A DNA stretch of 29,705 bases. It comes from a virus. Both the position numbers and the translations under genes were made by a program. Numbering within the stretch: the stretch's first letter is position 1; each line of letters starts with the position of its first letter. A model generated the notes under the pieces. The model saw only the letters and a program-made list of their open reading frames with translations. It was not told the DNA's origin and did no database searches. This document shows, piece by piece, positions 1 to 29,635 of this stretch. The stretch spans positions 1-29,705 of IMG/VR virus record IMGVR_UViG_3300025889_000654; one strand, given 5' to 3'.

Positions 1-2
1 AC

Positions 3-410
3 TTCTTCCCAAGCGTTCAGGAGGTTTGGGGGGCAGAGATACCCTTGTACTATCCAAAGCGCTACGCGGGCACCTCAGACTGCATAGGCGTGTACAAGAA
101 CAATGAATCCATCATCGACTTCAAGCAAACCAATAAGATGAAGCGTCGGGATTGGATTGAGGACTATTTTGTCCAATTAGCTGCATATGCTGCGGCGCAT
201 AACGAGGTCCATGGCACGAAGATCCGCCAAGGCGTCATTATGATGGTTGCGCAGGATGGTCAGGTGCAAGAATTCACCACCTGTGGCCGTGAGTTTGACG
301 GGTATGTAGATAAGTGGTGGCGTCGTGTCGATGCCTTTGAGAAAGCAAAAAGAGCTCTGGTGGACCAGCCACCAGAGCTAATTACCCCCGAGGGTGGAGA
401 GGGCCCTTGA
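3..410 (+). CDS. PD-(D/E)XK (RecB/Cas4-like) nuclease, 5' end cut by window
   Basis: This is the C-terminal part of a phage nuclease of the PD-(D/E)XK superfamily (RecB/Cas4/lambda-exonuclease type), which usually acts on DNA ends during phage replication, recombination or host DNA breakdown. The frame is open to the window edge, so the gene begins outside. Visible motifs, in order: a Glu in 'VWGAEIPLYYP', 'YAGTSDCIGV' with the first catalytic Asp, 'IIDFKQTNK' (the D-x-K of motif III), and 'QLAAYAAAH' (the Q-x-x-x-Y motif of the RecB family). It is the only plus-strand gene here and converges on the minus-strand late block. Its last 25 codons carry a hairpin that acts on the opposite strand as a likely terminator (341-379). 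A TTG at 45 is an in-frame codon, not a credible start, because motif residues lie upstream of it. The family call is strong; the exact role is inferred. Confidence 0.85.
   Translation, partial: FFPSVQEVWGAEIPLYYPKRYAGTSDCIGVYKNNESIIDFKQTNKMKRRDWIEDYFVQLAAYAAAHNEVHGTKIRQGVIMMVAQDGQVQEFTTCGREFDGYVDKWWRRVDAFEKAKRALVDQPPELITPEGGEGP
341..379 (-). terminator. Intrinsic terminator of the minus-strand late block, inside the nuclease gene
   Basis: On the minus strand an 11-bp perfect stem (AGCTCTGGTGG / CCACCAGAGCT, arms 369-379 and 353-363, 5-nt loop) is followed by CTTTTTGCTTTC. This is the classical shape of a rho-independent terminator and sits about 47 nt past the last late-gene stop codon. On the plus strand the same stem is followed by AATTACCCC, so it would work in one direction only. 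It lies within the coding sequence of the convergent nuclease gene. Function is inferred from structure. Confidence 0.75.
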
Positions 411-425
411 AGACGTGGAGGTAAC

Positions 426-581
426 TCACTTTTTGCGGGCAGCCCGCATGTTGTCCACTAGATTTGGATAAGGACGACCAGCCTTCTTAGCAGCCGCTTT
501 TGCGGCTGCTTTTTTTGCTGAGGTCAGTGCTTTTGGTTTGCCGACTGACTTCGGTCGTTTCTTGTCCCAGATTTCTTTCAT
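426..581 (-). CDS. Small Lys/Ala-rich basic protein (51 aa)
   Basis: A 51-residue ORF whose ATG overlaps the TGA of the preceding large gene (ATGA, 578-581), indicating translational coupling. The protein is very basic: an N-terminal 'MKEIWDKKRPKSVGKPKAL', then a Lys/Ala repeat stretch (about residues 21-34) and a C-terminal 'GRPYPNLVDNMRAARKK'. I recall similar 'GRPYPNL-DN-RAA' tails in small hypothetical proteins of environmental phages, but I know no function. The Lys/Ala stretch resembles histone-H1 or nucleoid-protein tails, so DNA binding or co-packaging is possible but unproven. It is the last gene of the late block. Its Lys/Ala codons also form the stem and T-tract of the plus-strand terminator at 489-516. 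Codon-level coherence and the ATGA overlap make the gene likely real. Confidence 0.75.
   Translation of the reverse strand: MKEIWDKKRPKSVGKPKALTSAKKAAAKAAAKKAGRPYPNLVDNMRAARKK
489..516 (+). terminator. Intrinsic terminator for the plus-strand nuclease transcript
   Basis: A 9-bp perfect GC-rich stem (AGCAGCCGC, TTTT loop, GCGGCTGCT; arms 489-497 and 502-510) runs directly into a 7-T tract at 510-516 on the plus strand, about 80 nt after the nuclease stop codon. On the minus strand no T-tract follows, so it is unidirectional. It lies inside the minus-strand 51-aa gene, where the same bases encode its Lys/Ala repeat. Confidence 0.8.
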
Positions 582-3500
582 TGTGTTAGCCCTGCTTGGC
601 GCTGCTGCAACATTGCACTAATTGGATCATTAGGGAACAGCGTGGGGTACATCAAATTCACATTACTTGGCTTACTGGCTGGTTGCTGGAATGCAGGGGC
701 ACGCAGATTAGGCTGTTTCTGTTGAGGCGCAGGCATACCGCGGCTTGGTGGTGCCGGTGGCAGTGAACGTAGCATCTGACGCGCTGTACCCGCAACAGGC
801 AACTTAGGGTTTACCCCAGTAGACGCCATTTCTTCTTGGCGCAACAAGTCATTCAGCTCTTGGCTCGCGGCCCGTGCAGCGCCGGGAGTGGTCACCAGTT
901 GCTGGAAAAAGGACCGTGGTACACCGACTTTGGTCAGCTCTGCCGCAACCTTAGCTGCATCATCTGGCGTAGAGAGGTTCGTGAGCCGGTTTGCAAATCT
1001 TTCATCCTCTAGTGCTTTAACAAAAATACGGTCATAGACCTGCTTTTCCAGCCCCCCTGCTAGGCGCATCAACAGGGCTAAAGCCCCTGTTTCAGGGCGG
1101 ATACGGCCTACAGCGGCTTCGCGAATAGTGGTCGTAAGGTATTGGACCCCTGATCCAAAAATCTTTTTAAGGTTTTCATCCAAGGAATTAAATTCAGGAA
1201 TCTGCCCTGTCACACTAGAAAAAACTTCAACGCGCCGCTGTAAATCAGCCAGCTTCTTTAGGTCATCTAGATGCTTAGTATTCCTAAACAATACGTTCAG
1301 GCTTTTTTCATTGTTTTGAATAAACGAGGATAACAATCCCCCCTGTTGTGCACCCTCACCTGCCGTGGTAAAAACCGCACGACGCAAGGCGGCAATCATT
1401 TCAGGATCTTTTCCTGCCTCATCCACCAACTTGCGCATTAATGCAGGATCTGTGAGGGCTGCTGCAATAGATTGCTTAGGGTCCGCATCAAGACGGGAGG
1501 CTCTTGCAAGCAAGTTGTCCAATTCGCCGTCTTTTGCAGCAATGCGGCGCTGATCGATTTCTGCCATGCGTGCAGCATAATCATCCGCAAAACCAATTTC
1601 ATCCGTCAATTTAGTCCGGATGTTTTCAGGTAATGCATCAACAATACCCTTGTTCTTGTCCAACACCGAACGGATTTTCTTTGGGTCTACTAGCCCGTTT
1701 TTGTCAAAGATAGGCTTACGAGACAGCCAATCAATTGCGCCACGGGTCATTAAATCATCTACCTGTGCACTTCCACCAAGAGTCACACGAAGTTGACGCA
1801 GATTGTCCGCGTTACTAAACGCTGTCTGCATCAAAGATTCGTTTGGCAGCAGATATTCTTGGCCGCCGCGCTTAGTACTGGACAACAGCAAGGGGAGTGC
1901 TTTTTCGTAGCCTGCCTTGTAGTCATCGAGGACCATTTTCATGCCCTCATACTCGCGCTTGATCTTTGGCACGTGGTCCATGATCAGCTTCTCGATGTCC
2001 TTGAACACCGCATCGCCTGTATCTACAATGCGCTGGGCATCGGTAAGGCGAGTCCGACCCTTCATCATTGCGGCGTTATAGCCACCGATCGAGTCATTCC
2101 GGAAGCGTTGCGCAGCAGTGAGATAGTCCAGTGCCTCAGGCACGTTGATATCAATCTTCGTAGCGTCTTCTGCAATCAGCGCAGCATCCCTTTTGATCTG
2201 CTCCGGATTGATTACTACCCGCTTGCCGGGGATGCCGGTGGGGATGGAGATATTGCCTTCTTTATCGCGCGCCGAAGTCTCTGCAATATCGCTCAAAGAG
2301 ACGCCACGTTTGCGGCCTTTTGTAGCCTTGCCCTCCATCAGTTCGGCAACAGTTTTACGGACTGTATTTTGAACGTCTGGATCAAGACCTGCTACCTGAG
2401 AATCTAGGGCCTCATTTGTAAGGTCCCGCTCCATGCGGGCCTGCATATTTTCCCGCGCTACTTGCTGTGACTTTACAAATCGCTCAAGGAGTCGGATAGG
2501 CTCTGGGACTTGGCTACGCGCAGAGGGCCGCTCAATCCGATATTTTTCAATCAGCTTTGCCGCAGCATCTTCCATGTCCCGTGATTCAAACAAAGACTTA
2601 CCGTCTTTGCGAGTAGGCATCAACAGGCCTTCAGGGGAAATGGCTTGGCGAAGACCCATGCGGCTAAGAACGTTTTTGCGCATGTCGGCATTCATCTCCA
2701 TGCCAGACATCAGGACGCCGCGTAACTCATCGTTTAAAGCATCAATGTTCTGTGGGCCGAGGCGCTCGGACAACGCAAGAATTTCCGCTTCAGTTAAATC
2801 AGCCTGTTCCCGCAACATGGACTCAAAGAAACCTTGGCGATTTGCCTGTACCTGCTGGAATGCCTCAACAATGGGTTTGCGGGCCTCGGGGGCAAAACTA
2901 TCAAACAAGTTTTGTAGTTTGGTCTGGTTTTGATTAATCCTAGCTTTTACTTCGCCTAATTGTTCTGGGCCAAGAGTTTCGAGCACCTCTAGTTTCCGTT
3001 TTAATAACGGAGTAAACATTGTTTGCTCAGTCACATCGAATACAAATCCGGCCTCGGAGACGCGGGGATCGTCTAATGCGGCTTTTAATGCGGCCAATGC
3101 CTCTTGTGCTTCTTTACTTTCGCTGATCGGCCCAAACACCTGTCCGAGCTTTTTTTCAGCATTTTTAATGAACATTTTCGGTAAGATATTGATACCGGGA
3201 AATCTAAAAAAGCCCGGCTCAAGCTCGTTTAAAACGCTTTTTTCAACATCCCCCATCTCAGCAAAAAGGCCTGACGTATCTACAGCTTGCTTAATTTTTT
3301 TCCCCGCAAAAAGAGTCGGGCTTAGCTTTGCAACATTAGCGGCTGCCAATGGTAGACCAATAAACGCGGCAGCAGGCATCAGCTCCTTGTAGACAGGCTT
3401 CATCTCATTGCTATCGTCTACATTTTCTTCGACTGCTTGGCGCAATCCTTCGTAGCCTGCGCCAAATGCTACATCCAAAGCAACCGCGCCTCTGGGATTG

Positions 3501-4018
3501 CGCTTGACAAAATCAATTGCATCTGTCGAAATGTCTTTCAGTATGCTGCCGCTAGGTCCAATTCTTCCCGTTAATTCAGTACCGGCCCGGGCAATGGGTG
3601 CCTTAGAGGCTGCCCATGCCAATATGCCCGTGAATGGGAGGTTAGCTCCAACGCCTTCTCCGATAGCACGGGCGTAGCGCTCGGCTTCATTTTTGGGTGC
3701 GCGGATTTTATCGCCACCGATGGCTACTTGCAATTTATTAAACAGCTTACCAAGGGTTTGGACTTGATCTTCCTTCATGCCCAAGGCTTTACCAATACCA
3801 AGCGTTGCGGCATCGGGCAATGCAAACAAGGCGCTTTGTAAGCCCCATGTTGTATTGTTTACCAACCCGCCGATTGCGTCATTGGTGCTGGTGAATTCTT
3901 GATCAACACCAGCCGCGGACCGCGGTGCTTTCTCCAGCGGAGCACCCTCGGCTCGACCGACGACTTCGCCGGTCATCATGTCAATTACTTCGCCCTTGAT
4001 ATTGGTAATTGTGCTCAT
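578..4018 (-). CDS. Very large putative internal virion / DNA-ejection protein (1146 aa)
   Basis: Probably a capsid-internal protein injected with the DNA, as with the large last late genes of podoviruses (T7 gp15/gp16 being the functional type, though I see no sequence signature linking them). Mostly helical and charged, with hydrophobic/amphipathic patches at about 47-80, 120-142 and 213-232, a long coiled-coil-prone middle, and a C-terminal Pro/Gln-rich tail (about 1070-1146) containing 'NLMYPTLFPNDPISAMLQQ', a tail peptide I recall at the end of similar proteins in environmental phages. No lysozyme or transglycosylase motif was recognised. The ATG overlaps the upstream TGA by 4 nt (ATGA, 4015-4018) and its own stop overlaps the next small gene in the same way. 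Function is inferred from size, composition and position; a tail component is the alternative. Confidence 0.7.
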   Translation of the reverse strand: MSTITNIKGEVIDMMTGEVVGRAEGAPLEKAPRSAAGVDQEFTSTNDAIGGLVNNTTWGLQSALFALPDAATLGIGKALGMKEDQVQTLGKLFNKLQVAIGGDKIRAPKNEAERYARAIGEGVGANLPFTGILAWAASKAPIARAGTELTGRIGPSGSILKDISTDAIDFVKRNPRGAVALDVAFGAGYEGLRQAVEENVDDSNEMKPVYKELMPAAAFIGLPLAAANVAKLSPTLFAGKKIKQAVDTSGLFAEMGDVEKSVLNELEPGFFRFPGINILPKMFIKNAEKKLGQVFGPISESKEAQEALAALKAALDDPRVSEAGFVFDVTEQTMFTPLLKRKLEVLETLGPEQLGEVKARINQNQTKLQNLFDSFAPEARKPIVEAFQQVQANRQGFFESMLREQADLTEAEILALSERLGPQNIDALNDELRGVLMSGMEMNADMRKNVLSRMGLRQAISPEGLLMPTRKDGKSLFESRDMEDAAAKLIEKYRIERPSARSQVPEPIRLLERFVKSQQVARENMQARMERDLTNEALDSQVAGLDPDVQNTVRKTVAELMEGKATKGRKRGVSLSDIAETSARDKEGNISIPTGIPGKRVVINPEQIKRDAALIAEDATKIDINVPEALDYLTAAQRFRNDSIGGYNAAMMKGRTRLTDAQRIVDTGDAVFKDIEKLIMDHVPKIKREYEGMKMVLDDYKAGYEKALPLLLSSTKRGGQEYLLPNESLMQTAFSNADNLRQLRVTLGGSAQVDDLMTRGAIDWLSRKPIFDKNGLVDPKKIRSVLDKNKGIVDALPENIRTKLTDEIGFADDYAARMAEIDQRRIAAKDGELDNLLARASRLDADPKQSIAAALTDPALMRKLVDEAGKDPEMIAALRRAVFTTAGEGAQQGGLLSSFIQNNEKSLNVLFRNTKHLDDLKKLADLQRRVEVFSSVTGQIPEFNSLDENLKKIFGSGVQYLTTTIREAAVGRIRPETGALALLMRLAGGLEKQVYDRIFVKALEDERFANRLTNLSTPDDAAKVAAELTKVGVPRSFFQQLVTTPGAARAASQELNDLLRQEEMASTGVNPKLPVAGTARQMLRSLPPAPPSRGMPAPQQKQPNLRAPAFQQPASKPSNVNLMYPTLFPNDPISAMLQQRQAGLTQ

Positions 4019-6402
4019 TTAAGGCTAATGCTCCGCAGTTGGCCTACTGTAAATGCTTGAATACTGCCGTTGGGCATTTTCAAATACACCGTAGCATTTG
4101 GATCTTGCGCAGTTCCGACGGTGCTCTTCAGGAAAGTATACATGCGGCGAGCAGCATCAGGGTCTTGGCTGACGACAAACGGATCACTTTGTGTGCCTGT
4201 GTTTGGCGTATTCATGACATAGTTGTTCTTCTCAAAGCCCAGCTGGGTAAGAATCTGTTGACGAGCATTACGAAAACGTGCCTCTAATGCGTTAATGCTA
4301 CCTGCCGTAAGTTCTTTGTTTTTAAAGAACTCTTCTGGCTTAGTAAGGGCTTCTTGTGTCTCACGTTCCCACTCCTGCTCCTGCACTGCTATGCGACCAC
4401 TTTCGTTAGCACTAGCAGCAGCTTTCATGATCCTGTTTAACGAGATACCAACAGTGGTGGCTGCTTTTTTCTGATCAACATCAGGCCGAATTACGCCCCC
4501 GCCGATAGGCACCAACAGGTTGTTAACTTTAGACGTAAACCATGTGCCGGGGCTATATAGCTCTGTGAAATTCCGCTTTAAGGTATTGACCTCTTGCAAA
4601 GCATTGTCGAGGGACCGCAAGGCGCTGCCTAACTTAATACGCTCGTCCTTGTCTGTCTCAACCGTTGTTGGAGCTTCGCCAAGGTTTTCAACAAACGGAT
4701 TGTCTGTGGGACGAAGCGTGTAGGGACTGTTAAGGGCGGTGCTAACTGTTGGATCTTTCGCCGGATCAGTCTCAATGCTAAAGGTGGGGGTCCCGTCCGT
4801 GTCCTCAATAATACGACCCCCCATCCCGATACTTGAAACCTTAACTTTTCCCTTTGCTTTGGCTTGAGCGATCAGCAACTTGTAATCATTATCCAAAATC
4901 TTTAGCTGAAGAGCTTTGGCGGCAGCGTCTTGAGCGTTAACATCTGTAATGGCCTGACTCAAGGCAGCTGAATCGAGCTTCAACTGACGATCCTTAGCCT
5001 GCGCAACCAAGGCAGCAAAGCCCTTAGGAATACCCTCTGCGGCTTTTGCCAAAGACATTGCCATTGTGGGCTCGGTAGCACCAGCAAACTTGAACCCAGC
5101 ATCTGCCAACATTAGCAATGCATTGGTCTTCATATCTTCTTTGCTGTCGCCCATCAGTTCACGGAACAATGGGCTGTACTCATCCCGGGCTTCACGAATG
5201 CGATCTATCTTGCTCTTTGCTTTAACAGGAACGGCTGTGCCTGTCGCCTTTGCTAGGTCTTCTGCAGCAGAGCTCGCGAAAGTGGAATCCTCATCGGGGT
5301 TTGCAGCAACAGGAAAATCTACGGAGGGAGTCTGTTCAGCGGGCATTCCACGAGTTTTTTCTTCCGCAGCTGCCATTGCAGCTTCCCGGGACATCGTCGG
5401 ATCTTGCGCATAGTAGCGCTCATCAATAAAACCACGACCACCACCGGCCCCAGTAGCAGGGGCCATCATGGGAACCTCATAGCCAATAACTTTTCGTTCA
5501 CCCGGCTGAGGTTCTTTTTGTATATCGGTGTCCAAACCTGCCAGCATGGCTGCGGCACTGGATAAAACGGGGGCTGCATTTGGATACCGCTGAGACAGCT
5601 GATTTAAGCCCTGACTCAACCCTTGGGTAAAGGTAGGCTGCATTAAATTACCACCACGAGCAATTTGATCGGCAGTAAACCGACCGCCTGCTCCCCGCAC
5701 GTTTTCAAGGTACGGCTGCGACATTTGAGGGTTCATGAACATACGGCCCAAAGCAGCGTTTGCGGACTGGGCATAACGCGATGCGGTAGGACCGACTTGA
5801 TTCAGAGTTCGCGCCACAGCTGGTGCAAATCGCCCAGCTTGAGTCATAAAGGCGGTACCCATCGCAGAAACCGGACCGCCGATATTAAACTGCTGCGGAG
5901 GCATGCCATCAGGTGTTGGCGGAGCTTGTTCAGCCCCGCCCTGTGGGAAAGGGCCAGCCATGCCCTCACCCCCGGGAGGCATCATAGGTCCTTGGTCCAT
6001 GGGCATCGGCGCACCCTGCATTGCCATCGGGTCTTGTCCGGGCATCGGGGGAGGCATCATACCAGCACCCTGAGGCAAACCACCAATACCACCTTGCGGC
6101 TGCTGCATCATAGTAAAGTGCTCTTGCAACATGGCTAACACCTCTGGGGGCGTCTCCATCGCTGCTTCTTCACCAACCATCTGAGCAAGTTCCATGTACC
6201 GCGCATCAACTGAGCGCATATCGCCGCGCAGTGTATTCATCAAAATCTCAGGGTTTTGAGGCGTGCGCTCCATGATGGGCATCTCATCCTCGTCGTCCAT
6301 CTCATTGATGTCGTCTTCGAACCCAGACATGATCCCGCTGTTCTTAGCCTCTTTTGACAAGGGCATATCAAACATGGCCCGTTTTAGGATTTCTTCTTTC
6401 AT
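4015..6402 (-). CDS. Putative internal virion / ejection protein with Met-Pro-Gly-rich segment (795 aa)
   Basis: Second of the consecutive large late proteins. The N-terminus has an acidic segment (residues 28-42), then 'DARYMELAQMVGEEAAMETP' (about 66-85), a motif I recognise from marine phage internal proteins, then a strongly Met/Pro/Gly/Gln-rich low-complexity stretch (93-171). The centre has a helical, Ala-rich region and the C-terminal third is a mixed helical domain ending 'VGQLRSISLK'. No enzymatic motif is visible. The ATG at 6402 is preceded by AAGGA, which overlaps the stop codon of the upstream gene, a good ribosome binding site. It overlaps the next gene by 4 nt. The Met-rich segment is unusual and may be disordered. 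Role as an ejection protein is inferred from neighbours and size. Confidence 0.7.
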   Translation of the reverse strand: MKEEILKRAMFDMPLSKEAKNSGIMSGFEDDINEMDDEDEMPIMERTPQNPEILMNTLRGDMRSVDARYMELAQMVGEEAAMETPPEVLAMLQEHFTMMQQPQGGIGGLPQGAGMMPPPMPGQDPMAMQGAPMPMDQGPMMPPGGEGMAGPFPQGGAEQAPPTPDGMPPQQFNIGGPVSAMGTAFMTQAGRFAPAVARTLNQVGPTASRYAQSANAALGRMFMNPQMSQPYLENVRGAGGRFTADQIARGGNLMQPTFTQGLSQGLNQLSQRYPNAAPVLSSAAAMLAGLDTDIQKEPQPGERKVIGYEVPMMAPATGAGGGRGFIDERYYAQDPTMSREAAMAAAEEKTRGMPAEQTPSVDFPVAANPDEDSTFASSAAEDLAKATGTAVPVKAKSKIDRIREARDEYSPLFRELMGDSKEDMKTNALLMLADAGFKFAGATEPTMAMSLAKAAEGIPKGFAALVAQAKDRQLKLDSAALSQAITDVNAQDAAAKALQLKILDNDYKLLIAQAKAKGKVKVSSIGMGGRIIEDTDGTPTFSIETDPAKDPTVSTALNSPYTLRPTDNPFVENLGEAPTTVETDKDERIKLGSALRSLDNALQEVNTLKRNFTELYSPGTWFTSKVNNLLVPIGGGVIRPDVDQKKAATTVGISLNRIMKAAASANESGRIAVQEQEWERETQEALTKPEEFFKNKELTAGSINALEARFRNARQQILTQLGFEKNNYVMNTPNTGTQSDPFVVSQDPDAARRMYTFLKSTVGTAQDPNATVYLKMPNGSIQAFTVGQLRSISLK

Positions 6403-6411
6403 GCTGTTTCC

Positions 6412-7536
6412 TTAGACCAATCCGGCAGTTTTTGCCGCGGCGGCTGTACCAAGTATACCGGTTCCAACACCAGCAAGCTGCTGGAATGGGCTGGGGGTCG
6501 GTTGCGTTTGTTGGGTGACCGCCATTTGCGTAGACGGAGCGCCTTTGTAAATATCGGACAAGAACGCCAAATTCTGACGTGTCTGCATTTCGTTTTGCAG
6601 GGCGTTGGCACGAGTAACGTCGTACTGGCTTTGCAAATCCGCCTGCTGCGACTGGCCCAAGTTGTACAAGAAGTTGACATCCTGTTGGCCCAACGCCTGC
6701 TGCTGTGCCCCCAACGCGGCTTGCTGTACACCCATGTTGCCCATTTGCGTACCCAGTGCACCGATGCCTTGCGCAACGCCTTGCTGCAAACCAGCCTGTG
6801 AACCCAAGATGTTTGCCTGAACGCCTGCAATATTTGCATATTGACTCGCGGCATTTTGCAAACCCTGAGCTTGCTGTAATTGACGCAACTGCTGCTGCTC
6901 AAAGGCCTGCTGGGCCTGAGCTTGCGCAGCACCATAGCCCTGCTGGAGCGCCCCAAAAATCGCAGCGTTCTTTGTTTCAGCAAGGTTGCGATTAAGCTCT
7001 TCGCGTTGGATACCTTCGCGTGATCCACCAAACGCCCCAGCGCGTACAGCCTGCGTATTTAATGCCTGCTGTTGTATGTCGCCTTGGCGATCAATCTGCT
7101 TGACGGCCTCATCAATAACCTGCTGCTGATACGGGTTCATGTAGGCGCTGACACTGGTGGGGTCATAGCCCTGCGCAGCACCCGTGTAAGCAGTAACGCC
7201 CTGACCCAACGCACCAAGTCCAGCTCCTGCAGCCCCTGCATACTGGCCCATGGCCCGCGCTGCTTCATCCGCGTTCAAAAATGACTTGTAGCCCTGACCA
7301 CCGTAGGCCTGACCCATATCAAGCGCGGCGGCGCCTTGGTTTAGGTATGACTGAAATGCGCCAATCCCTGCACGGCCCGTTGCCAACGCATCAAGCTGGT
7401 CCGGGGACATCCCTGCCCGCTGATACTGGGGCAGGCTAAATTTACGATCGGCCTCTGCTTTAGCGGACTGGAGAAGCCCTACTTTAATGGCTTCAATTTC
7501 CGGGGCTTCCCGGACGTACTGTGTGGTTTCTTCCAT
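6412..7536 (-). CDS. Gln/Ala-rich putative DNA-ejection protein (374 aa)
   Basis: Helical, Gln/Ala/Gly-rich protein resembling the mid-sized internal virion proteins of podoviruses. Markers that I recall in environmental phages: 'YMNPYQQQVIDEAVKQIDRQ' (132-151) and 'GAFGGSREG' (167-175), followed by a long Q/A-rich helical region (about 195-320) and a Gly/Ala-rich hydrophobic C-terminus (352-374). Such proteins are packaged inside the capsid and help form a conduit through the envelope during infection. It starts 2 nt after the stop of the 1036-residue protein and ends 9 nt before the 795-residue one, so all three should be produced together. No catalytic motif is seen. The call is by composition, motifs and order. 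Confidence 0.72.
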   Translation of the reverse strand: MEETTQYVREAPEIEAIKVGLLQSAKAEADRKFSLPQYQRAGMSPDQLDALATGRAGIGAFQSYLNQGAAALDMGQAYGGQGYKSFLNADEAARAMGQYAGAAGAGLGALGQGVTAYTGAAQGYDPTSVSAYMNPYQQQVIDEAVKQIDRQGDIQQQALNTQAVRAGAFGGSREGIQREELNRNLAETKNAAIFGALQQGYGAAQAQAQQAFEQQQLRQLQQAQGLQNAASQYANIAGVQANILGSQAGLQQGVAQGIGALGTQMGNMGVQQAALGAQQQALGQQDVNFLYNLGQSQQADLQSQYDVTRANALQNEMQTRQNLAFLSDIYKGAPSTQMAVTQQTQPTPSPFQQLAGVGTGILGTAAAAKTAGLV

Positions 7537-7538
7537 TT

Positions 7539-10500
7539 TTAACCCCGTGCTGCGTTACGTTCTAACTGATGCATCAAAGCATACATCTTCTTTGCGCCTG
7601 CTCTACGGCTACCGTTACCCGCGCCACGAACAGCTTTTGCCGTCATGACAAACTCGCCATCCGACAGCATTGCAGGGATTGAATCAGAGATCTCGGTCCC
7701 CGGACCGGAAATTTGACCAGTGCGTCTAGGATAACCGCCCTGAGCCAAATGCGCAATACCCCCGTTCATCATCCCGCCAGTTGCGGCGAGGCGCGGATAT
7801 GTGCGTGGATAGTCGATTAAGTTCCTGCCCTTGTAGTACTGGAAGTAGTCATCTGTTGCCTGTGCAGGAGCCGTGACGGGTTTTCCGGTAAATAAGTCAA
7901 GCGGAGCAGCTCCAGTAATCGGATTCACTGGAAGTGGGTCCAGCCTGCCGGTGACTCCCGCGCCCCCGCCAATCATATTGGTGCCCGGACCCGCCGGGCC
8001 AGCAATTAGGTTTGTTCCGGTATACCCAACATTGAATCCACCGGTGTTAGTGCCACCGGTGTTAGTGCCGCCAGTATTTGTCCCACCGACGTTGATGCCA
8101 CCGGTGTTCGTACCGCCAGTGTTGATCTTCTTTTCGTCGTCCTTAACAACATCAATATTAATTGGGTTATACCCGAAGACGGGGATGCCCCGCTCTAGAA
8201 GATCATCAACGCTCGTTGAAGTCCCGTTCTTAGCCATGTTCGCTAGACCAGCCGCCGTCAGGGGAGTACTCGTATCTGCTAACAAGCGCAAGTTGCCGAC
8301 ACCAGTATTTGCCACTGTTTGCGCTAGTTCGGCTTTATATGCTGCAGGTATTGCGTCAAGGCTTTTTGTTCCCCCGACTTGTTTGTACAGCGCGTCTACT
8401 GCCTTGTAGCCGCCGTATTTATCAAACTCCGAGGTAGGGGCCCCTGTTGTCATCGACCGATACATCAGGTCTTTGGCAATTTCAGGAGTCAAAACCGGAC
8501 GGGCTGGTTGGGCCGCAGCGGCTTCGTACAATTGAGCCGCCTGTGTGACAGAAGCGACGGGTACTTGTTTTTCGCGCAAATAGTCTACCGCAACCTGTCT
8601 GGTTTCCTGACTATCCGGTTTTTTAACAGTGCCGAGAAACTGCTGGTAGGCCGCCATGATCTGTTCAGGAGTACTTTGAGGAGTCAACTGCTCTGCTAAG
8701 TTGACTTCGCCACCAGCGGCGTAGCCGCCAATTTCCATGATTCCGCCGCCCGCTTTGCGCTGGACAGGTTGGGCATAAAGATTCGTATAATCCGCTGGGG
8801 TTTCATACCCAGCAAAACCACCTTCGGGGGTGTATTTAATCCCGTACATGTTCTGGACCAAGTATTCCCGGGGGTTCTTTTTGATCAGGTCTAAGCCCGG
8901 AGTGCCCTTTATCTGTTTAGCCAACTCTGATTCTTGGTTCTCGCCGGGCTCAAAGCCTCCCATCAGGGCGAGGCTGCCAAGGCCTGCTGCGGTGAGTGGG
9001 CCATATTGTGCAAGCATGCCGGGTCGGGCAGCCTCTGATGCCTTTTCGTACACCGCTTTCTGCAGCCAGTCACGGCTGCCCTCGGGCAGCTTGGCTACGG
9101 CATCCATGCCTGCTTGGTGGGCAGCTGGTTCCCCGCGACTGGCAATTTCACTTGGAGACAAATACTCGTTGTAGAAGTCTTTACCGCCTTGGTAAAGATT
9201 CTCTGCGCCCGTCTTAACAGTGTTAAAAAGAGAACCTATGCCGCTTTCAACAGGGACAACAGGGGGCGGGTTTTGGGCAGCCTGCGCCATGGGATTCATG
9301 TTTGGGCGGTAGCCACCAACAGGCAATGTTCCGGGGGGTTTGGTCGTTAAAGCTATGGGGGCGTCAATTCCCGCTCTGCTTGGGAAAGAAGCGCCTGTTG
9401 TAACAGGGGCCACGTTTCCGCCGGGCGGGCGGGGCATGTTTCGATCAACCACTTCTACGGGAGCCGCTTTACCTGCGGCCACGTCTGCCGGTTTTAAAAC
9501 CTCTGGCAAAACCTCTGGCTCATATACTTTGCCACCGATCGTATCACTTGGGGGCACTGAAGCAAAGGTATCTTTAATCGCAGTAGACAAGTCACGCGTG
9601 CCCACCGGCTGGCTCATGTAGTTCAGGCCTACCGTGGTACCTACACCGATCGCCGCCTGTTGCAGGCCTCCTTTAACAGAATCCTTTAGGCTTTGGCCGC
9701 CAAGCAGGCCTGCTGCAGTGCCCGCCGCCGTGGACGCCAGAGCGGCGCGCCCCGCAACGCTCGTCACACCGGTTACGCCACCGAGGAACTCCCCGACTGG
9801 GCCACCCGGCGCCCCTAGGAACGAAATAGCAGAACTGGTGAGGACTTGTTTTAGGTCGCCCCCGCTAAGGGCAGTCAAACCACCAGAAACCAGCGCGGCG
9901 GTACCTGCTGAACCGAGGCCATATGCGGCTGCCGCAGGGCCGAGAATCGTGGTCAAGGCAACGGTTGCAACGATTCGACCAATAGGGCTCTTGACAATCT
10001 GTTTAGCGACATTGACAATGGGCTTAACGACGGATTTAACAATATTCGTTACGCCCTTAAACAGACTTTTAAAGAAGCCATATTCTCGTAAACCCGTCAC
10101 AGGGTTGATGGTTCCCATGCCTCCTTGTTGGCGCAACATCGCCGCTTCGGCGGGTGTAATATGCGCCAGAATGGTGTCCCCTGAGCGACCCTGACTAGCA
10201 ACGGCGCGGGCAGCATCAGCAATACCCCCCATAGCAAAGCCTTGTGGTGCTTGGGCCATGGACCCCTGCTTTGTCTTCAGTGCCTGCAGCAGTAAAGCAG
10301 TTACCGTTGCCAGTACTTCCTCGTCATATTCCGCAGGAAGATCACCCTCGTCAATGACGCCGTCTTTGATAAGTTCTGCGATTGCCGATGCGTACTGATC
10401 GGGATTTTCTTGTAGATACTGGAATAGCTGGAGAATCTGGCTGATTTCTTCTGCCGACATGTTCAGCAGCTCTGGAGGCAGCGACATGTTCATCGTCTGC

Positions 10501-10649
10501 TCATATTGCGCAGCAGTTTCTGGGCTAGTCGTAGCTAACGCTGTAGTAACAGCGTCATAGGACTCTATCGGAGAAAGCTGCGGGCCTTGGTTCATTTCCT
10601 CGTTTTCGGGGAGGGCCATAATCCCTGCTGTCTTAGGTGCTGTTGCCAT
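7539..10649 (-). CDS. Large putative internal virion protein with hydrophobic core and GGTNTG repeats (1036 aa)
   Basis: Start chosen at the ATG at 10649 because GAGGA lies 6 nt upstream (10656-10660); an in-frame TTG at 10667 overlaps that site. Order of parts: acidic helical N-terminus (1-130); 'GFAMGGIADAARAVASQGR' and 'GDTILAHITPAEAAMLRQQG' (137-176), ending 'TINPVTGL'; a Lys/Val amphipathic segment (190-222) and a long Gly/Ala/Leu hydrophobic region (226-350) able to interact with membrane; Pro-rich linkers; GGTNTGG repeats (about 842-871); a Gly-rich part; and a C-terminal 'GPGTEISDSIPAMLSDGEFV' (about 980-1000) followed by a basic helix. The last motif is widespread in aquatic phages, function unknown. 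Position and membrane-active core suggest an ejection protein. A tape-measure-like role is less likely in a short-tailed phage. Confidence 0.7.
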   Translation of the reverse strand: MATAPKTAGIMALPENEEMNQGPQLSPIESYDAVTTALATTSPETAAQYEQTMNMSLPPELLNMSAEEISQILQLFQYLQENPDQYASAIAELIKDGVIDEGDLPAEYDEEVLATVTALLLQALKTKQGSMAQAPQGFAMGGIADAARAVASQGRSGDTILAHITPAEAAMLRQQGGMGTINPVTGLREYGFFKSLFKGVTNIVKSVVKPIVNVAKQIVKSPIGRIVATVALTTILGPAAAAYGLGSAGTAALVSGGLTALSGGDLKQVLTSSAISFLGAPGGPVGEFLGGVTGVTSVAGRAALASTAAGTAAGLLGGQSLKDSVKGGLQQAAIGVGTTVGLNYMSQPVGTRDLSTAIKDTFASVPPSDTIGGKVYEPEVLPEVLKPADVAAGKAAPVEVVDRNMPRPPGGNVAPVTTGASFPSRAGIDAPIALTTKPPGTLPVGGYRPNMNPMAQAAQNPPPVVPVESGIGSLFNTVKTGAENLYQGGKDFYNEYLSPSEIASRGEPAAHQAGMDAVAKLPEGSRDWLQKAVYEKASEAARPGMLAQYGPLTAAGLGSLALMGGFEPGENQESELAKQIKGTPGLDLIKKNPREYLVQNMYGIKYTPEGGFAGYETPADYTNLYAQPVQRKAGGGIMEIGGYAAGGEVNLAEQLTPQSTPEQIMAAYQQFLGTVKKPDSQETRQVAVDYLREKQVPVASVTQAAQLYEAAAAQPARPVLTPEIAKDLMYRSMTTGAPTSEFDKYGGYKAVDALYKQVGGTKSLDAIPAAYKAELAQTVANTGVGNLRLLADTSTPLTAAGLANMAKNGTSTSVDDLLERGIPVFGYNPINIDVVKDDEKKINTGGTNTGGINVGGTNTGGTNTGGTNTGGFNVGYTGTNLIAGPAGPGTNMIGGGAGVTGRLDPLPVNPITGAAPLDLFTGKPVTAPAQATDDYFQYYKGRNLIDYPRTYPRLAATGGMMNGGIAHLAQGGYPRRTGQISGPGTEISDSIPAMLSDGEFVMTAKAVRGAGNGSRRAGAKKMYALMHQLERNAARG
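8035..8123 (-). repeat. GGTNTGG-encoding short tandem repeats
   Basis: About 89 bp of degenerate 15-bp units of the form ACCGGTGTTAGTGCC / GCCAGTATTTGTCCC on the plus strand encode repeated Gly-Gly-Thr-Asn-Thr / Gly-Gly-(Ile/Phe)-Asn-Val on the minus strand. The unit is a multiple of three, so copy number could vary without breaking the frame. Confidence 0.8.
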
Positions 10650-10655
10650 GCTGTG

Positions 10656-10660
10656 TCCTC
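10656..10660 (-). promoter_or_regulatory. Ribosome binding site deciding the start at 10649
   Basis: GAGGA on the minus strand, 6 nt before ATG at 10649. It lies in the longest intergenic gap of the late block (61 nt), which separates the appendage protein from the ejection-protein cluster. The same gap holds a short inverted repeat, AATAC-GTCA-GTATT (10666-10679). No convincing -10/-35 promoter was recognised. Confidence 0.65.
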
Positions 10661-10710
10661 GGTCCAATACGTCAGTATTTTACAAAATTATTAGGGGGTG
10701 GTACAGGGGT

Positions 10711-11847
10711 TTATTGCTGTACCTGTTCAACTACCAAGTTAGCCGCCGGGGAGCCGGGAGCAAACGCAGTAGCAGGCGCCGCAACTATACTCAAAGCGAC
10801 ATCCGTAGTCGCAAACATAATCTCAATGTAGTCATTCGCCGCAAGAGATACCGCCTCTGAAATAAGCACCGGGCTGTACCCCGAGTTTAAGTCCAACGTT
10901 ACGATTCGCGACGACTGGGGAATATCTACCCCGTTTTTGCGTATCCAAGCGTAAGCGTTTTTTGAGGACGAGTTGCTGCTTGTGTATTGCAACGTGCATG
11001 AAATGTCGTAGTACCCAGACTGCGAAAAAACAATTCTAGAGGTTGGCGTGCCAATACTCACCCCGTTACTGACAGCCGTTGACGTAAACGGTACGGCATA
11101 GGCCGTGTTTACTGCGGCAGCAACGTAGTTACTTGCTCGATTAAACGTGCCGTAGTTCTTCTGCTGCTCAATGGTCGGGCGAACAAAGATAATCCCGTCG
11201 GTTGTACCGACTTTAATCACCGCCGCAACAGGGGTGACGTTGTTTGGTGCAGTCGGCTTCACGTTGGTAAACGCCCCTGCCACGGTGGGCGACGCATACA
11301 AAATATCGCCCTGAGAGAAAGCGCTGGTATTTACGTCCCGAACGAAGCCCCAAACCGTGCAGTAACCGCGCTCCCCCGTGTCAGGCAAGTCATGTGTCAT
11401 GACACCTAAGATATACAGAGAGGGCTGTGAGCCATTAGCGATATAAGGAGCAACCTTTACTGCGTTATCTGATGCCCCCGCAAAACCGACCACCGTGCCG
11501 TTGGGGATCGTTACCCCCGTGTCGTTCTGCACCCGAGCGTAGGTCTCTTGTCCAATTTGTTGTACAACTCCGTACTCCATGTCGAGTTCAAGAGTCGCGT
11601 CGTCCGAGTCCCAATCAAGCCGCCCGGTCTGGTGTGGGGCAACACCGGGCGTGGTATCAAAGTCAATATAGTCAACCGGCTTGTTCCATTCCAACTGCCC
11701 CAGAATGTTGTTGATCTGGTTAAAGTAAAGACGCAGGATGTTACTCAGTTGTTCTTGGTATTGCCTGTTATATTGATCCGTGGCTGAAGGCAGGCGCGGC
11801 GGGGTGGCCCGATTGAGCGCTTCTTCAGATGTGATGACGTTAGCCAT
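10711..11847 (-). CDS. Tail appendage / fibre-like protein with jelly-roll-type C-terminus (378 aa)
   Basis: Structural protein with three apparent parts: an N-terminal helical segment (1-60, 'YNRQYQEQLSNILRLYFNQI') that could anchor to the tail; a beta-rich middle (about 85-235) with 'NDTGVTIPNGTVVGFAGASD', 'GYCTVWGFVRDVNT' and 'QGDILYASPTVAGAFTNVKP'; and a C-terminal region (about 245-378) with 'GYYDISCTLQYTSSNSSSKN', 'AWIRKNG' and 'NDYIEIMFATTD', which reads like a C1q/TNF-type jelly roll often used for trimeric fibre tips. It starts with a TAATG overlap with the P22 gp10-like gene, so both are co-translated. I infer a tail-attached appendage, possibly receptor-contacting. No enzymatic motif is visible. 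Confidence 0.68.
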   Translation of the reverse strand: MANVITSEEALNRATPPRLPSATDQYNRQYQEQLSNILRLYFNQINNILGQLEWNKPVDYIDFDTTPGVAPHQTGRLDWDSDDATLELDMEYGVVQQIGQETYARVQNDTGVTIPNGTVVGFAGASDNAVKVAPYIANGSQPSLYILGVMTHDLPDTGERGYCTVWGFVRDVNTSAFSQGDILYASPTVAGAFTNVKPTAPNNVTPVAAVIKVGTTDGIIFVRPTIEQQKNYGTFNRASNYVAAAVNTAYAVPFTSTAVSNGVSIGTPTSRIVFSQSGYYDISCTLQYTSSNSSSKNAYAWIRKNGVDIPQSSRIVTLDLNSGYSPVLISEAVSLAANDYIEIMFATTDVALSIVAAPATAFAPGSPAANLVVEQVQQ

Positions 11848-13745
11848 TAGCGCCGACCGTCCGGACGAATATCAATGCGCGGAGCACCCAACTGCCACGC
11901 GGTGCCTAAGGTATTAGAGTCTATGCGCAAAGAAATCTGTCTTCCCCGCACCCGGGTGTTGACCTGCCCCGTATATTCCTCAACCGGAATTGCAACGGTC
12001 CGAACGACAGGACCGCCGTTTACCCCGCTTGTTGATTCGGGGTCCGTGGTCCCCGAACCTGAGTTCTGTTGCGGTGTCAGAGATAGTGTGACAGCGGGCC
12101 TCGGCGAAGTAGAACCCCGGAAAGTTATATCAGGAAGCACGCGACTAACAAAGCCAAAATTGTGCCCGTCGTCCATGTCAAACTGGGAGCTTTCAATATA
12201 AGCAGGCAACGGGATATTACCTTCCCCCGCGGCATCATCTGACCCATTTTCCTGTGACGTCAAATACCCATTAAGCGTTGCTGCAGTTGGGTTTCTAGCA
12301 ACTTTGCTGTCAATCCACGCAGTGCGCTCCATCGTCCCGAAATACCAAATATCTTCCGCATAGTTATATACGACATATCGGTCAGGGGAGATAATTGGGG
12401 CATTTTCTGGGGAAGAGCAGTAGAACCACCACACCTCGTTAAACGCCTCCACAGTTCCTGCAAAGACTTGCTCGGCCTGTGTTAAATCAATTTGGTTTTT
12501 TGGGTCATTATTATTAAATATGTACTGACGGACATCGCAGCGCAATGTTTGCACACGACCATCATACATATAGAACTTATCGACGCCCATCCAATAAGTT
12601 ACGTTGTTGGCTGAAGCGACGGCGCGGGAGGACATTATTGAAGTGTTTTCGCCCAGTAAGGTGGCTCCCCACACGAACGGCGCACCGAGATACTGCAAAG
12701 AGTACAGTGCTGCATCAGTCCAAACCAATATCTCTTGGCGCTGCTGTTGAACCGCTATGATGGAAGAACCGATAGATAGTCGTAAATCGCCCGCTTGGTT
12801 TGTAGCAGTAGGCAACCAGTCATACGGGTTTTCTTGATCCGACCAACGAATAAGCATTGGATCGAGGCTGGGATCAAATACAGGGTTTACCCCAAAGCAC
12901 AAAACAAACCTTGATACATCCGAGACCACTAACTGGTTGTGGAGGGTAGGTACATTAGTGCCGACTAAGGGGACGCCACGGACGCCTGCCGTTACTCCAT
13001 CGGCAGCTGACCAGTAATAAAGTCCGCCGTACTCCGGGCCAAAGATTAGATCCTGCCCAAAGTTGGCTTGGTTCCAAACACGAATCCGTAGCGTACTGGT
13101 TTCCCCCACTCCCCACGGGCCTCTGCCCCACGGGCCTGCTCCCCAACCTTCTACCGGGACTTCTAAGACGGCCCCTGTCGCGAGTAAGTAGCTGCCAACA
13201 ACACTAGCACCACCATCCCCTGTGTCCGCCTCAGTTATGACTAAGCCCGAAGGCAGCACCACCGTGTAACTACCGGAAGCAACAGAAGCTACTTCCCATT
13301 CTTGGTTTAAGACTGCCGCAGTGACATTCCCCCCAAGGTCGACTGCGCCACTAAAGATGACGTAGTCCCCCGGCCTAATAGCGCTGGTTACGGAATCATT
13401 AACTGTCAGTGTCTGGGTGACAGACGAGGCAGAGAAAGTCACGTCCCCTGCAGCAGTAACAGAACGAAATGGCGTGATGTCGTAATAAATGCCGCCATTT
13501 TCAACGTAATAATGACTTGTAGTACCTACTCCTAAGAGTCTTTGACCGCCCAGCGTCACCCAGTTAAACAGCTTGCGACATACACCTTTAATGACGTTCT
13601 GCGAGTAGCGGACCCAACCCCCGATTTTTTCTGGAGTTCCCTGCCGAAACCTGACCTTATCACAGTCATACCATCCACCCTCAGTGGCATACCGGGTGTT
13701 TTCCCGGTTTATACCGGGTTTAAATAGCATCTTTTTTAACGGCAT
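11847..13745 (-). CDS. P22 gp10-like packaged-DNA stabilisation / tail hub protein (632 aa)
   Basis: Resembles the proteins commonly annotated as 'packaged DNA stabilization protein gp10' of P22-like phages, which form the lower tail/nozzle and keep DNA in the filled head; T7 gp12 has the analogous place. Visible: N-terminal 'GINRENTRYATEGGWYDCDK' followed by 'VRFRQGTPEKIGGW', a repetitive beta-strand (propeller-like) body with 'LFNWVTLGGQRLLGVGTTSH', 'LVVSDVSRFVLCFGVNPVFD', 'IRWSDQENPYDWLPT' and 'ILVWTDAALYSLQYLGAPFV', and a C-terminal 'GRQISLRIDSNTLGTAWQLG'. Length is typical for the family (about 470-650). It follows the lysis cassette by 9 nt and overlaps the next gene by one base (TAATG). 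The family call is from motif memory, not a search. Confidence 0.72.
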   Translation of the reverse strand: MPLKKMLFKPGINRENTRYATEGGWYDCDKVRFRQGTPEKIGGWVRYSQNVIKGVCRKLFNWVTLGGQRLLGVGTTSHYYVENGGIYYDITPFRSVTAAGDVTFSASSVTQTLTVNDSVTSAIRPGDYVIFSGAVDLGGNVTAAVLNQEWEVASVASGSYTVVLPSGLVITEADTGDGGASVVGSYLLATGAVLEVPVEGWGAGPWGRGPWGVGETSTLRIRVWNQANFGQDLIFGPEYGGLYYWSAADGVTAGVRGVPLVGTNVPTLHNQLVVSDVSRFVLCFGVNPVFDPSLDPMLIRWSDQENPYDWLPTATNQAGDLRLSIGSSIIAVQQQRQEILVWTDAALYSLQYLGAPFVWGATLLGENTSIMSSRAVASANNVTYWMGVDKFYMYDGRVQTLRCDVRQYIFNNNDPKNQIDLTQAEQVFAGTVEAFNEVWWFYCSSPENAPIISPDRYVVYNYAEDIWYFGTMERTAWIDSKVARNPTAATLNGYLTSQENGSDDAAGEGNIPLPAYIESSQFDMDDGHNFGFVSRVLPDITFRGSTSPRPAVTLSLTPQQNSGSGTTDPESTSGVNGGPVVRTVAIPVEEYTGQVNTRVRGRQISLRIDSNTLGTAWQLGAPRIDIRPDGRR

Positions 13746-13754
13746 GGCAGTCTC

Positions 13755-14219
13755 TTATGCAACAAGTCCGGTCAAATACACAGTTTTCCCACCCTGTTTA
13801 GTGGCCGTAAGCACTTGCTTCTTGTTATCCGCAGGGTTAAAACTAACATGCACCCACCCAGAATCAGGGATGCCGGGGGTATAGAACTCTAGGATAACTT
13901 GGCGGAAATTCATGTGGTCTACAATCCATTTCGCTAGGTCTGCATTTGGAATACCGGGGATTTCGATGTCCGCCGCCATTCCTTTACAGTGATCCGAGGT
14001 CCGCGAACCACCGACTTTGGTGTTCACAGCGGGGTGGCGAAAACCCGAGTTTACTTTGACGCCCATGCCAAAGTGCTCACGCACCGGCTGGAGAATATTT
14101 TCGCACAAGGCGACCATATTGGCAACCTGTTCCTCATCCGGGGTATTGTCCATATCTAGACGTAAAGCGGTATCGCTTTTAGTCATCTCTGCGAGGCTAA
14201 AATTGGCGGTTAGTTTCAT
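13755..14219 (-). CDS. M15-family peptidase endolysin (154 aa)
   Basis: Zinc peptidase of the M15 (D-Ala-D-Ala carboxypeptidase/endopeptidase-like) family that cuts peptidoglycan peptides and serves as phage endolysin. N-terminal 'NFSLAEMTKSDTA' is typical of the phage members. Zinc ligands expected from the family are all visible: His77 and Asp84 in 'SDHCKGMAADIE' (S-x-H-x(3)-G-x-A-x-D type) and His124 in 'GWVHVSF'; Glu111 in 'VILEFY' is a candidate catalytic base. No signal peptide, so export would depend on the holin at 14424-14921. Its ATG overlaps the TGA of the small secreted protein gene (ATGA, 14216-14219). Full-length for the family, with no missing residue. Confidence 0.9.
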   Translation of the reverse strand: MKLTANFSLAEMTKSDTALRLDMDNTPDEEQVANMVALCENILQPVREHFGMGVKVNSGFRHPAVNTKVGGSRTSDHCKGMAADIEIPGIPNADLAKWIVDHMNFRQVILEFYTPGIPDSGWVHVSFNPADNKKQVLTATKQGGKTVYLTGLVA

Positions 14220-14413
14220 AATGAATCAGTTGGTTTGGGGGATAGTTCCAAGCAGTCCACCTGAAAAGCCTTTACGTCGGCATCCCTTTGCATGGCAAAA
14301 ACAGCGGTTTTGTTTTGGGCTTGGCACTGCTCAAGTGATATCGAAAGATTGCCGTTATAGAACGAACAGGTGCCGTTAGCTAGACAGGCAAACGCGACAG
14401 GTAACCAAACCAT
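14216..14413 (-). CDS. Small secreted four-cysteine protein of the lysis cassette (65 aa)
   Basis: A short hydrophobic N-terminus ('MVWLPVAFACLANG') followed by a soluble part with cysteines at 10, 16, 30 and 54. This could be a very short signal segment or membrane anchor with disulfides in the periplasm. I recall similar small four-Cys ORFs next to phage holins, but no function. It lies between holin and endolysin, starts 10 nt after the holin stop with AAGGGG overlapping that stop as ribosome binding site, and overlaps the endolysin start by 4 nt, so a lysis-related or envelope role is plausible. The Cys10 context (A-F-A-C) is not a clear lipobox, so I do not call it a spanin. Confidence 0.65.
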   Translation of the reverse strand: MVWLPVAFACLANGTCSFYNGNLSISLEQCQAQNKTAVFAMQRDADVKAFQVDCLELSPKPTDSL

Positions 14414-14423
14414 AGCAGACCCC

Positions 14424-14921
14424 TTATTTCACAACAGACCTCAATTGATCATCTTTGTCCTTGCTACCCACACTTGAGCCAAAGTAGTACGACAGGATTT
14501 GTGTCACAGCCGCAGACAAGACGCCAAGAATGTAAATAAGGATGTCTTTAGCCTCAGGCTTGACCTCCACAAAGATAAGCACTGTGAAAAGAACAAAAGA
14601 TAAGCCTGTGACCCCAAGAGCCAAAGCAGGTGTAACAATTTTGTTAATGAAAGGCGCATTTTGGCTTTCAACCACACGAGCCTCGCGCTCACGAGCGTTA
14701 GCTTTATCTGCAAGAATTGCTTTAAATTTTTCATGTTCAAGTTGTTTAATTTTGGCTTCTGCTTCGGGATCGCTTGTGATGGCTTTCATCACGGCGTTTA
14801 CTTCGTCTTTGACACCAAGTTGTTTAGAAAGCGCACTGACCGCCACGCCAGCCAAAGGGCCCCCAAGCGCAGTAGCGATACCGGGCGCGAAGCCCTTAAC
14901 CATTGAAATAAGATCATCCAT
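14424..14921 (-). CDS. Holin, three-TM superfamily type (165 aa)
   Basis: Start at ATG 14921, overlapping the previous gene's TAA (TAATG), with GAGG just upstream; a longer in-frame reading from 15020 lies within the previous gene and is rejected. The protein has an N-terminal hydrophobic/amphipathic helix (about 9-32, 'GFAPGIATALGGPLAGVAVS'), a charged cytoplasmic helical region (37-90), and two transmembrane segments (about 95-119 and 124-147), then 'SYYFGSSVGSKDKDDQLRSV', the characteristic tail of phage 3-TM holins. It would form the membrane lesion that releases the M15 endolysin. Its place immediately before the four-Cys protein and endolysin supports this. Confidence 0.88.
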   Translation of the reverse strand: MDDLISMVKGFAPGIATALGGPLAGVAVSALSKQLGVKDEVNAVMKAITSDPEAEAKIKQLEHEKFKAILADKANAREREARVVESQNAPFINKIVTPALALGVTGLSFVLFTVLIFVEVKPEAKDILIYILGVLSAAVTQILSYYFGSSVGSKDKDDQLRSVVK

Positions 14922-15361
14922 TAAATACCTCGCTTCACGATTACCCAAACCAGACCCGCGACAACAATTAGGCCGGTTAAAACACACAGCGTAATAATGA
15001 TCCCATTGAGCCACGCCCAAATAAGCTCTTTCCGCTTGATCTTCGCTAAGACAATTTGTCTTGCCTCCTCGTCCCGCTTGCGCTTGGCGTCGGATTGGAA
15101 CTTCAACCAGTCATCCCAAAGGCCTGCGCGGCCTTGGTAGATAAACATCTCCTTTAAAGCTGCTTCGTTTTGCTTGATTGTTTCTAGCGCAAAAAACGCT
15201 TCTGAGTCGGACCCCGATGCATTGGCTTTTTGGGCAATTTTTGCTTTGTTGTCAAAAAAGCTAAACAGGTGCTGACCCGCCGCCATGATGTCGCCGCCGT
15301 TGGCGATAGTCTCCTTAATCACCCCAAAGGCAGCATTGGCGATGGCGAGTTCAGCTATCAC
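14921..15361 (-). CDS. Helical protein with C-terminal membrane anchor, lysis region (146 aa)
   Basis: Start is GTG at 15361, directly after the preceding TAA, with no clear ribosome binding site, so coupled translation is likely. Residues 1-35 are Ala-rich helical, 55-110 are charged and coiled-coil prone, and 113-142 form a single transmembrane helix ('LNGIIITLCVLTGLIVVAGL') followed by a short basic tail (KRGI), suggesting a C-terminal anchor with the bulk in the cytoplasm. It overlaps the holin start by one base. I recall related proteins in aquatic podovirus contigs without a function. A holin partner, antiholin or membrane-tethered lysis regulator are all possible; none is shown by motifs. 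Confidence 0.68.
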   Translation of the reverse strand: MIAELAIANAAFGVIKETIANGGDIMAAGQHLFSFFDNKAKIAQKANASGSDSEAFFALETIKQNEAALKEMFIYQGRAGLWDDWLKFQSDAKRKRDEEARQIVLAKIKRKELIWAWLNGIIITLCVLTGLIVVAGLVWVIVKRGI

Positions 15362-15679
15362 TTAGGCGCGTCGATGGCTTAAAAACAAAGAGGCCAGCTC
15401 TTCCGCGCTTACCGCGGCTTCTATTTCTGCTTGAACAGTTGGTGGCGCATTGGGGCAAAGAAGTAAAATTTTCTGTTTTTCGGACGCCATGTCCCAGTCC
15501 GGGACCACTTCCATGTGCCTTAGGGCTCGATCTAAAGACGGTGGGGGCGTATATTCTTCTATCCCCAAGTGTTCCCGGGTCTGACTGTCAGACAGTTCTA
15601 AAAAAGTTCCCGGATAGCGCGTTTCCGCGATGGAAAATCCACGACCGCTAACTAATGCTCGACCATTAATTTTGTACAT
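15362..15679 (-). CDS. Possible tail fibre assembly chaperone-like protein (105 aa)
   Basis: Small protein coded 2 nt after the large fibre gene, the usual place of a fibre chaperone. N-terminal 'MYKINGRALVSGRGFSIAET' and 'YPGTFLELSDSQTREHLGIE' followed by 'YTPPPSLDRALRH' are reminiscent of the 'S-x-x-x-R-x-x-L-G-I ... P-P' segment near the start of many tail-fibre assembly proteins; the C-terminal part (70-105) is helical and acidic. The similarity is loose, and there is no signal peptide or membrane segment. It ends directly at the GTG of the next gene. I am sure of the gene, only moderately of the role. Confidence 0.5.
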   Translation of the reverse strand: MYKINGRALVSGRGFSIAETRYPGTFLELSDSQTREHLGIEEYTPPPSLDRALRHMEVVPDWDMASEKQKILLLCPNAPPTVQAEIEAAVSAEELASLFLSHRRA

Positions 15680-15681
15680 TT

Positions 15682-19550: not shown

Positions 19551-19559
19551 CTTACTTCC

Positions 19560-29365: not shown

Positions 29366-29635
29366 TCAGCACTTCCACGCTCTAAGGCTCTTGTTTATAC
29401 GGCTGTGCGGGTCTTTGGCTGTCTTTGGGCTCGTCAACTTGGACTTCATCCCAGACATTCTGGCGCAAAAGGACTTTCGCCGTGCTGCGTCTTTCTCTGT
29501 CTTTGGCTTGGGCGCGGGTGGCTTGAGCCCGGGTTTCCCCGGGTTCTCTTTGTTGTAAGAGGCTCGCCCTTTGGCGTTTAGGCCGCCTTTGGGGTTTTTG
29601 CCTTCTTTCCTCGTCCATGCCGCTGACTTAGACAT
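29366..29635 (-). CDS. Small basic conserved phage protein, DUF6321-like (89 aa)
   Basis: Start chosen at ATG 29635 ('MSKSAAWTRKEGKNPKGGLN'), where the conserved part begins; the 13-residue extension to 29674 overlaps another gene's frame. Motifs: 'SAAWTRKEGKNPKGGLNAKG', 'KPKTEKDAARRKSFCARMSG', 'TAKDPHSRINKSLRAWKC'. This is a family I recall in very many marine and freshwater phages near structural genes (DUF6321, from memory, so the name needs checking). Highly basic, with two Cys. Possibly nucleic-acid binding, not established. One base separates it from the stop of the upstream partial gene. Confidence 0.78.
   Translation of the reverse strand: MSKSAAWTRKEGKNPKGGLNAKGRASYNKENPGKPGLKPPAPKPKTEKDAARRKSFCARMSGMKSKLTSPKTAKDPHSRINKSLRAWKC

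Follow-up and report, generated by a model that had tools for sequence, protein, structure and literature searches.

A phage terminator at a convergent junction is known from phi29, where TD1 lies between the converging early and late transcripts; the locus described here resembles it in layout. In bacteria, terminators at convergent junctions (PMC7566282), 3' overlaps (PMC7373196) and collision-assisted termination (PMC13082048) are established. Intrinsic terminators between convergent bacterial genes were described by Ju et al. (2019), as far as the papers citing that work relate it (PMC10070815, PMC13082048, PMC10349824), and in Zymomonas (PMC7566282); like the phage element, they join a GC hairpin to a U-tract at the junction, limiting read-through into the opposing unit. 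They are, however, often two-directional and placed between genes, whereas the conserved hairpin of the phage has a one-strand U-tract and lies within the opposing coding sequence. In the tail-to-tail pair mscL/arfA of E. coli, as predicted for the phage, the transcript of one gene ends antisense to the 3' coding part of its neighbour (PMC10070815), but there antisense regulation was tested, while the phage offers an embedded putative intrinsic terminator with codon-level conservation. Transcript ends overlap in convergent E. coli operons as well (Conway et al., as cited in PMC7373196), as they are predicted to do in the phage; our reading of PMC7373196, however, gave no sign that terminators are conserved there within the coding sequence opposite. 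The main text of the HTVC027P transcriptome paper (PMC12753301) mentions neither antisense, nor terminator, nor exonuclease. The present locus is a new, well-documented instance of these established kinds, in which the embedding is visible in codon choice.

The window, that is, the whole stretch analysed, is a 29.7-kb virus record that opens with the C-terminal part of a PD-(D/E)XK-type exonuclease gene (phrog_298; 3..410, plus strand), the start of which lies beyond the window edge; in the closest relative the nuclease has 248 aa and follows a 483-aa SNF2-type helicase. Facing it on the minus strand, the late block ends with the gene of a 51-aa basic protein of unassigned function (phrog_34011; 426..581), which contains AKKAAAKAAAKK, and upstream of this lies the gene of a 1146-aa late-block protein without family match (578..4018, minus strand); the DSL-LC04 gene at the corresponding position is annotated as 'DNA transfer protein'. 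Only 15 nt separate the nuclease stop (410) from the end of the 51-aa ORF (581-426). The first-pass annotation had described here two interlocked terminators, each within the opposing gene, and the two hairpins, the gene stops, the gap and the one-strand T-tracts are all present at the positions it gave. Homologues of the 51-aa protein, which share a conserved GRPYPNLVDNMRAA, occur widely among other phages (window 426-581, L002-L081), typically followed after a few hundred bases by a co-directional gene of ~520 aa.

We propose that in a family of aquatic phages with genomes of ~60 kb a terminator of the late transcript very probably lies antisense in the nuclease tail, kept there by codon choice. 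In the window the candidate terminator occupies 353..379 on the minus strand, in the variable C-terminal tail of the nuclease, with an 11-bp stem, a 5-nt loop and a dG of -19.4 kcal/mol (AGCTCTGGTGG-CTGGT-CCACCAGAGCT, then CTTTTTGCTTTC). The U-tract (341..352, minus strand) lies directly 3' of the stem and overlaps the Lys/Arg codons (AAA GCA AAA AGA) with which the conserved nuclease domain closes. This hairpin and the plus-strand one are by dG the two best terminator-like sites of the whole window, the next reaching -16.5, and they rank first and second among 30 such sites in 1-20000; their folding z-scores are -5.3 (minus) and -5.7 (plus), both far above dinucleotide shuffles in stability. 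Each has its T-tract on one strand only, so that the U-tracts on both strands that mark a bidirectional terminator are found at neither. When codons were redrawn at the phage's own usage and scored for a hairpin and T-tract at least as good, the minus element was equalled in none of 5000 synonymous recodings of the last 40 codons and in none of 3000 of the whole fragment. With a stable, GC-rich, short-loop hairpin, an adjoining U-tract and a structure kept despite sequence change, it has the features of an intrinsic terminator, and it would end the late (virion-gene) transcript antisense within the 3' end of the convergent nuclease gene.

The recurrence of this element was followed across 160 loci, gathered by searching viral contigs with the nuclease and the 51-aa protein as queries. 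Where nuclease identity is at least ~59%, the convergent block is nearly always next, usually with the 51-aa gene; below ~59%, many loci have a co-directional gene of ~525 aa instead. An opposite-strand hairpin with a T-tract stands at the same junction in 42 convergent loci (window included), which comprise 25 distinct hairpin sequences but are not phylogenetically independent. These hairpins range in dG from -12.5 to -22.3, occur at nuclease identities down to 61%, and lie between 73 nt before and 12 nt after the nuclease stop. No such terminator was detected in any of 34 distinct diverged nuclease homologues, controls that are more distant (49-58% identity) and partly AT-richer; relaxed folding gave -9.6 at the strongest, and a mean indistinguishable from the null (-2.9 vs -3.1). 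In L084, which lacks both the tail and the 51-aa gene, and in phage DSL-LC04, in which the nuclease and DNA-transfer genes overlap by 46 bp, the convergent layout is kept and no terminator was detected; in L124 a weaker terminator (-13.5) is intergenic. The late gene facing the truncated nuclease of L084 has no homologue of the 51-aa gene beside it and contains a tandem repeat (ggagctactggagtaggagga) at 4740-4840. In a MAFFT alignment of the 25 embedded terminators the stems shift by one column between clades. In place of column-wise covariation counts, the analysis therefore relied on whether convergent and other homologues have the hairpin, on codon shuffles and on Lys-codon bias.

The last of these makes the embedding visible at the level of codons. 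The T-tract falls on Lys/Arg codons directly after a conserved RRVExFxK-like motif, and 41 of the 48 Lys codons over it are AAA (AAA:AAG 41:7), against 52 of 275 in the remainder of the same nuclease genes (52:223; odds ratio 25, p = 5e-19, the p value being optimistic for related sequences). Given this bias, selection appears to act, through the Lys codons of the nuclease, on the U-tract of the opposite strand. The Lys/Arg codons that close the conserved domain would supply the U-tract, and the hairpin would fill the poorly conserved tail and probably itself determine most of the tail's sequence, which is often rich in Pro and Gly (APALLPGPKD and GPEPDPGPNA are examples of the encoded peptides). 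In one clade the nuclease ends in ...KNSPEA*, with its TGA within the hairpin. The locus would be a clean case of overprinting, seen across tens of phage contigs, in which the terminator of one strand dictates the codon choice and C-terminal tail of the other strand's protein and, in that clade, the position of its stop codon too. Compact placement of a late terminator in the opposing gene, as the first-pass annotation had suggested, draws strong support from its recurrence with different stems, from its dependence on context and from the codon bias. The sequence, the recurrence, the context dependence and the codon selection are observed here; termination itself and its purpose are inferred.

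What could be the purpose of so strong a terminator? Among the long relatives, G002 (62,136 bp) and G004 (60,977 bp) both have 127-bp end repeats, and G001 (48 kb) is the nearest. In all three the virion, replication (primase, helicase, family-A polymerase) and terminase genes share one strand, and in the relatives the SNF2-type helicase and the nuclease form a two-gene island on the strand facing them. The nearest annotated phage, DSL-LC04, has the same helicase-nuclease island and belongs to the proposed family Dishuiviridae (PMC10611076). The earlier framing of the junction as a meeting of early and late genes is wrong: in relatives the opposite-strand unit consists of the SNF2-type helicase and the nuclease only, and the genes for primase, helicase and polymerase share the strand of the late genes. 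The embedded terminator of the long relatives comes after the virion block and ahead of the replication block, and because both blocks occupy the same strand, a transcript reading through it would traverse the island in antisense and go on into the replication genes in sense. Insulation against such read-through, and not a duel of early and late transcripts, would be the likely reason for the strength of the terminator, its role being to block late transcripts from both the antisense run through the island and the sense entry beyond it. We hold it highly likely that a late terminator of the ordinary sort has been overprinted in the variable tail of the nuclease and that it shields both the island and the replication block lying downstream. 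The replication block of the relatives also encodes Pam3 gp33-like (DUF7307) and Pam3 gp34-like proteins, and its primase matches the TOTE-type archaeo-eukaryotic primase domain (L165:18324-19685, L169:2541-4073).

The plus-strand counterpart lies within the 51-aa gene, at 489..516 (stem-loop 489-510), with a 9-bp stem and a dG of -18.2 (AGCAGCCGC-TTTT-GCGGCTGCT, then TTTTTTG). It has a hairpin and a U-tract but is not conserved beyond what the protein needs. An identical hairpin occurs only in L082, the closest relative, whose nuclease is 95% identical and whose T-tract is interrupted; other plus-direction hairpins, strong in L087, L090 and L113 and weaker in L098, L103 and L122, differ in place and sequence. 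In the 1.5 kb past the nuclease stop, a search for another plus-direction terminator found few strong ones in the relatives, and none in most. A head-on collision of polymerases of the kind proposed for E. coli ynaJ-uspE, positioned by the hairpin and ending transcription in both directions, would account for the helicase-nuclease transcript ends in relatives that have no plus-strand terminator. A mechanism of such kind has been described (PMC13082048), and the convergent layout with one strong hairpin, often without a plus-direction U-tract, would suit it. The hairpin's canonical one-sided U-tract appears, however, to be under selection, so the late direction needs no collision, and we regard this explanation as unlikely.

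It is likewise improbable that the two hairpins are working interlocked terminators whose ~175-nt overlap serves as antisense RNA cross-regulating the nuclease and the late genes. Strong versions of both hairpins occur in L082 as well as in the window, most relatives keep the late terminator within coding sequence, and the 3' coding overlap of arfA/mscL in E. coli is reported to regulate (PMC10070815); in E. coli, however, much less RNase III-cut dsRNA came from 3' than from 5' overlaps (PMC7373196). Antisense hairpins in the 51-aa genes are indeed stronger where the homologues are convergent (median -16.2) than where they are co-directional (-8.5), but permuting the codons of this A/K-rich peptide gives a shift as well (-13.3 vs -9.1) and reproduces most of the excess; the imperfect hairpins that relaxed folding finds in many 51-aa genes are mostly accounted for by peptide composition. 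Runs of Ala/Lys codons, read backwards, are GC palindromes beside T-tracts, and for this reason the null mean for the plus hairpin already stands at -9.4 kcal/mol. The protein includes ...SAKKAAAKAAAKKAG..., and the peptide AKKAAAKAAAKK so readily gives such hairpins that ~1-1.6% of null draws reach the plus one (51 of 5000 synonymous recodings, 80 of 5000 own-codon shuffles). Nor are the Lys codons under the U-tract of the 51-aa gene enriched in AAA (AAA:AAG 20:36 vs 147:136 elsewhere). T-tract hairpins in A/K-rich genes can mimic terminators, and the Lys-codon bias test separates the two. Only the minus-strand element is strongly non-random. Of the interlocked pair proposed at first pass, the recurrent and codon-biased minus half stands; the plus half falls by a standard set beforehand, its stem not being conserved in relatives that keep both proteins, and a strong terminator in that direction is missing from most of them. 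The plus hairpin is probably lineage-specific at most and largely a by-product of an alanine/lysine-rich protein; in this lineage it may end the helicase-nuclease transcript, with no conserved part in the arrangement. Searches of Rfam returned sub-threshold matches only, the best being Hrs13 (22.2 bits vs a cut-off of 52); this sRNA-family match (E 0.0078), at 440-516 on the plus strand, overlaps the plus hairpin and probably reflects mere resemblance to a terminator.

Cross-regulation could in principle also proceed through the minus element alone. Late transcription would run antisense over ~70 nt of nuclease coding sequence in the window, and the terminator might stay in the nuclease gene because this stretch, by duplex formation or polymerase collision, silences the helicase and nuclease genes at the late stage of infection. 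We consider this quite doubtful, antisense cross-regulation being possible but unsupported by the comparisons made here. A role of the 353-379 hairpin in the nuclease mRNA, as a 3'-end stabiliser or processing site rather than a late-strand terminator, is very unlikely: the stem folds in the plus-strand RNA too (348-395, dG -25.2), but such a role fails to explain the conserved A-run exactly at the stem base with its synonymous AAA preference, a run that is a U-tract in the minus-strand RNA only. That both hairpins are coincidences of protein coding, as the null frequency and A/K-rich peptide of the plus one could suggest, is most improbable, this reading being already refuted for the minus element by the recodings, the recurrence with changed stems, the absence in diverged homologues and the AAA bias. 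The insulating late terminator embedded in the nuclease tail is thus the reading we retain.

The third strongest terminator-like hairpin lies near the window end, at 29525-29546 on the plus strand, opposite to the late genes, with a dG of -16.5 and the tail TCTTTGTT.
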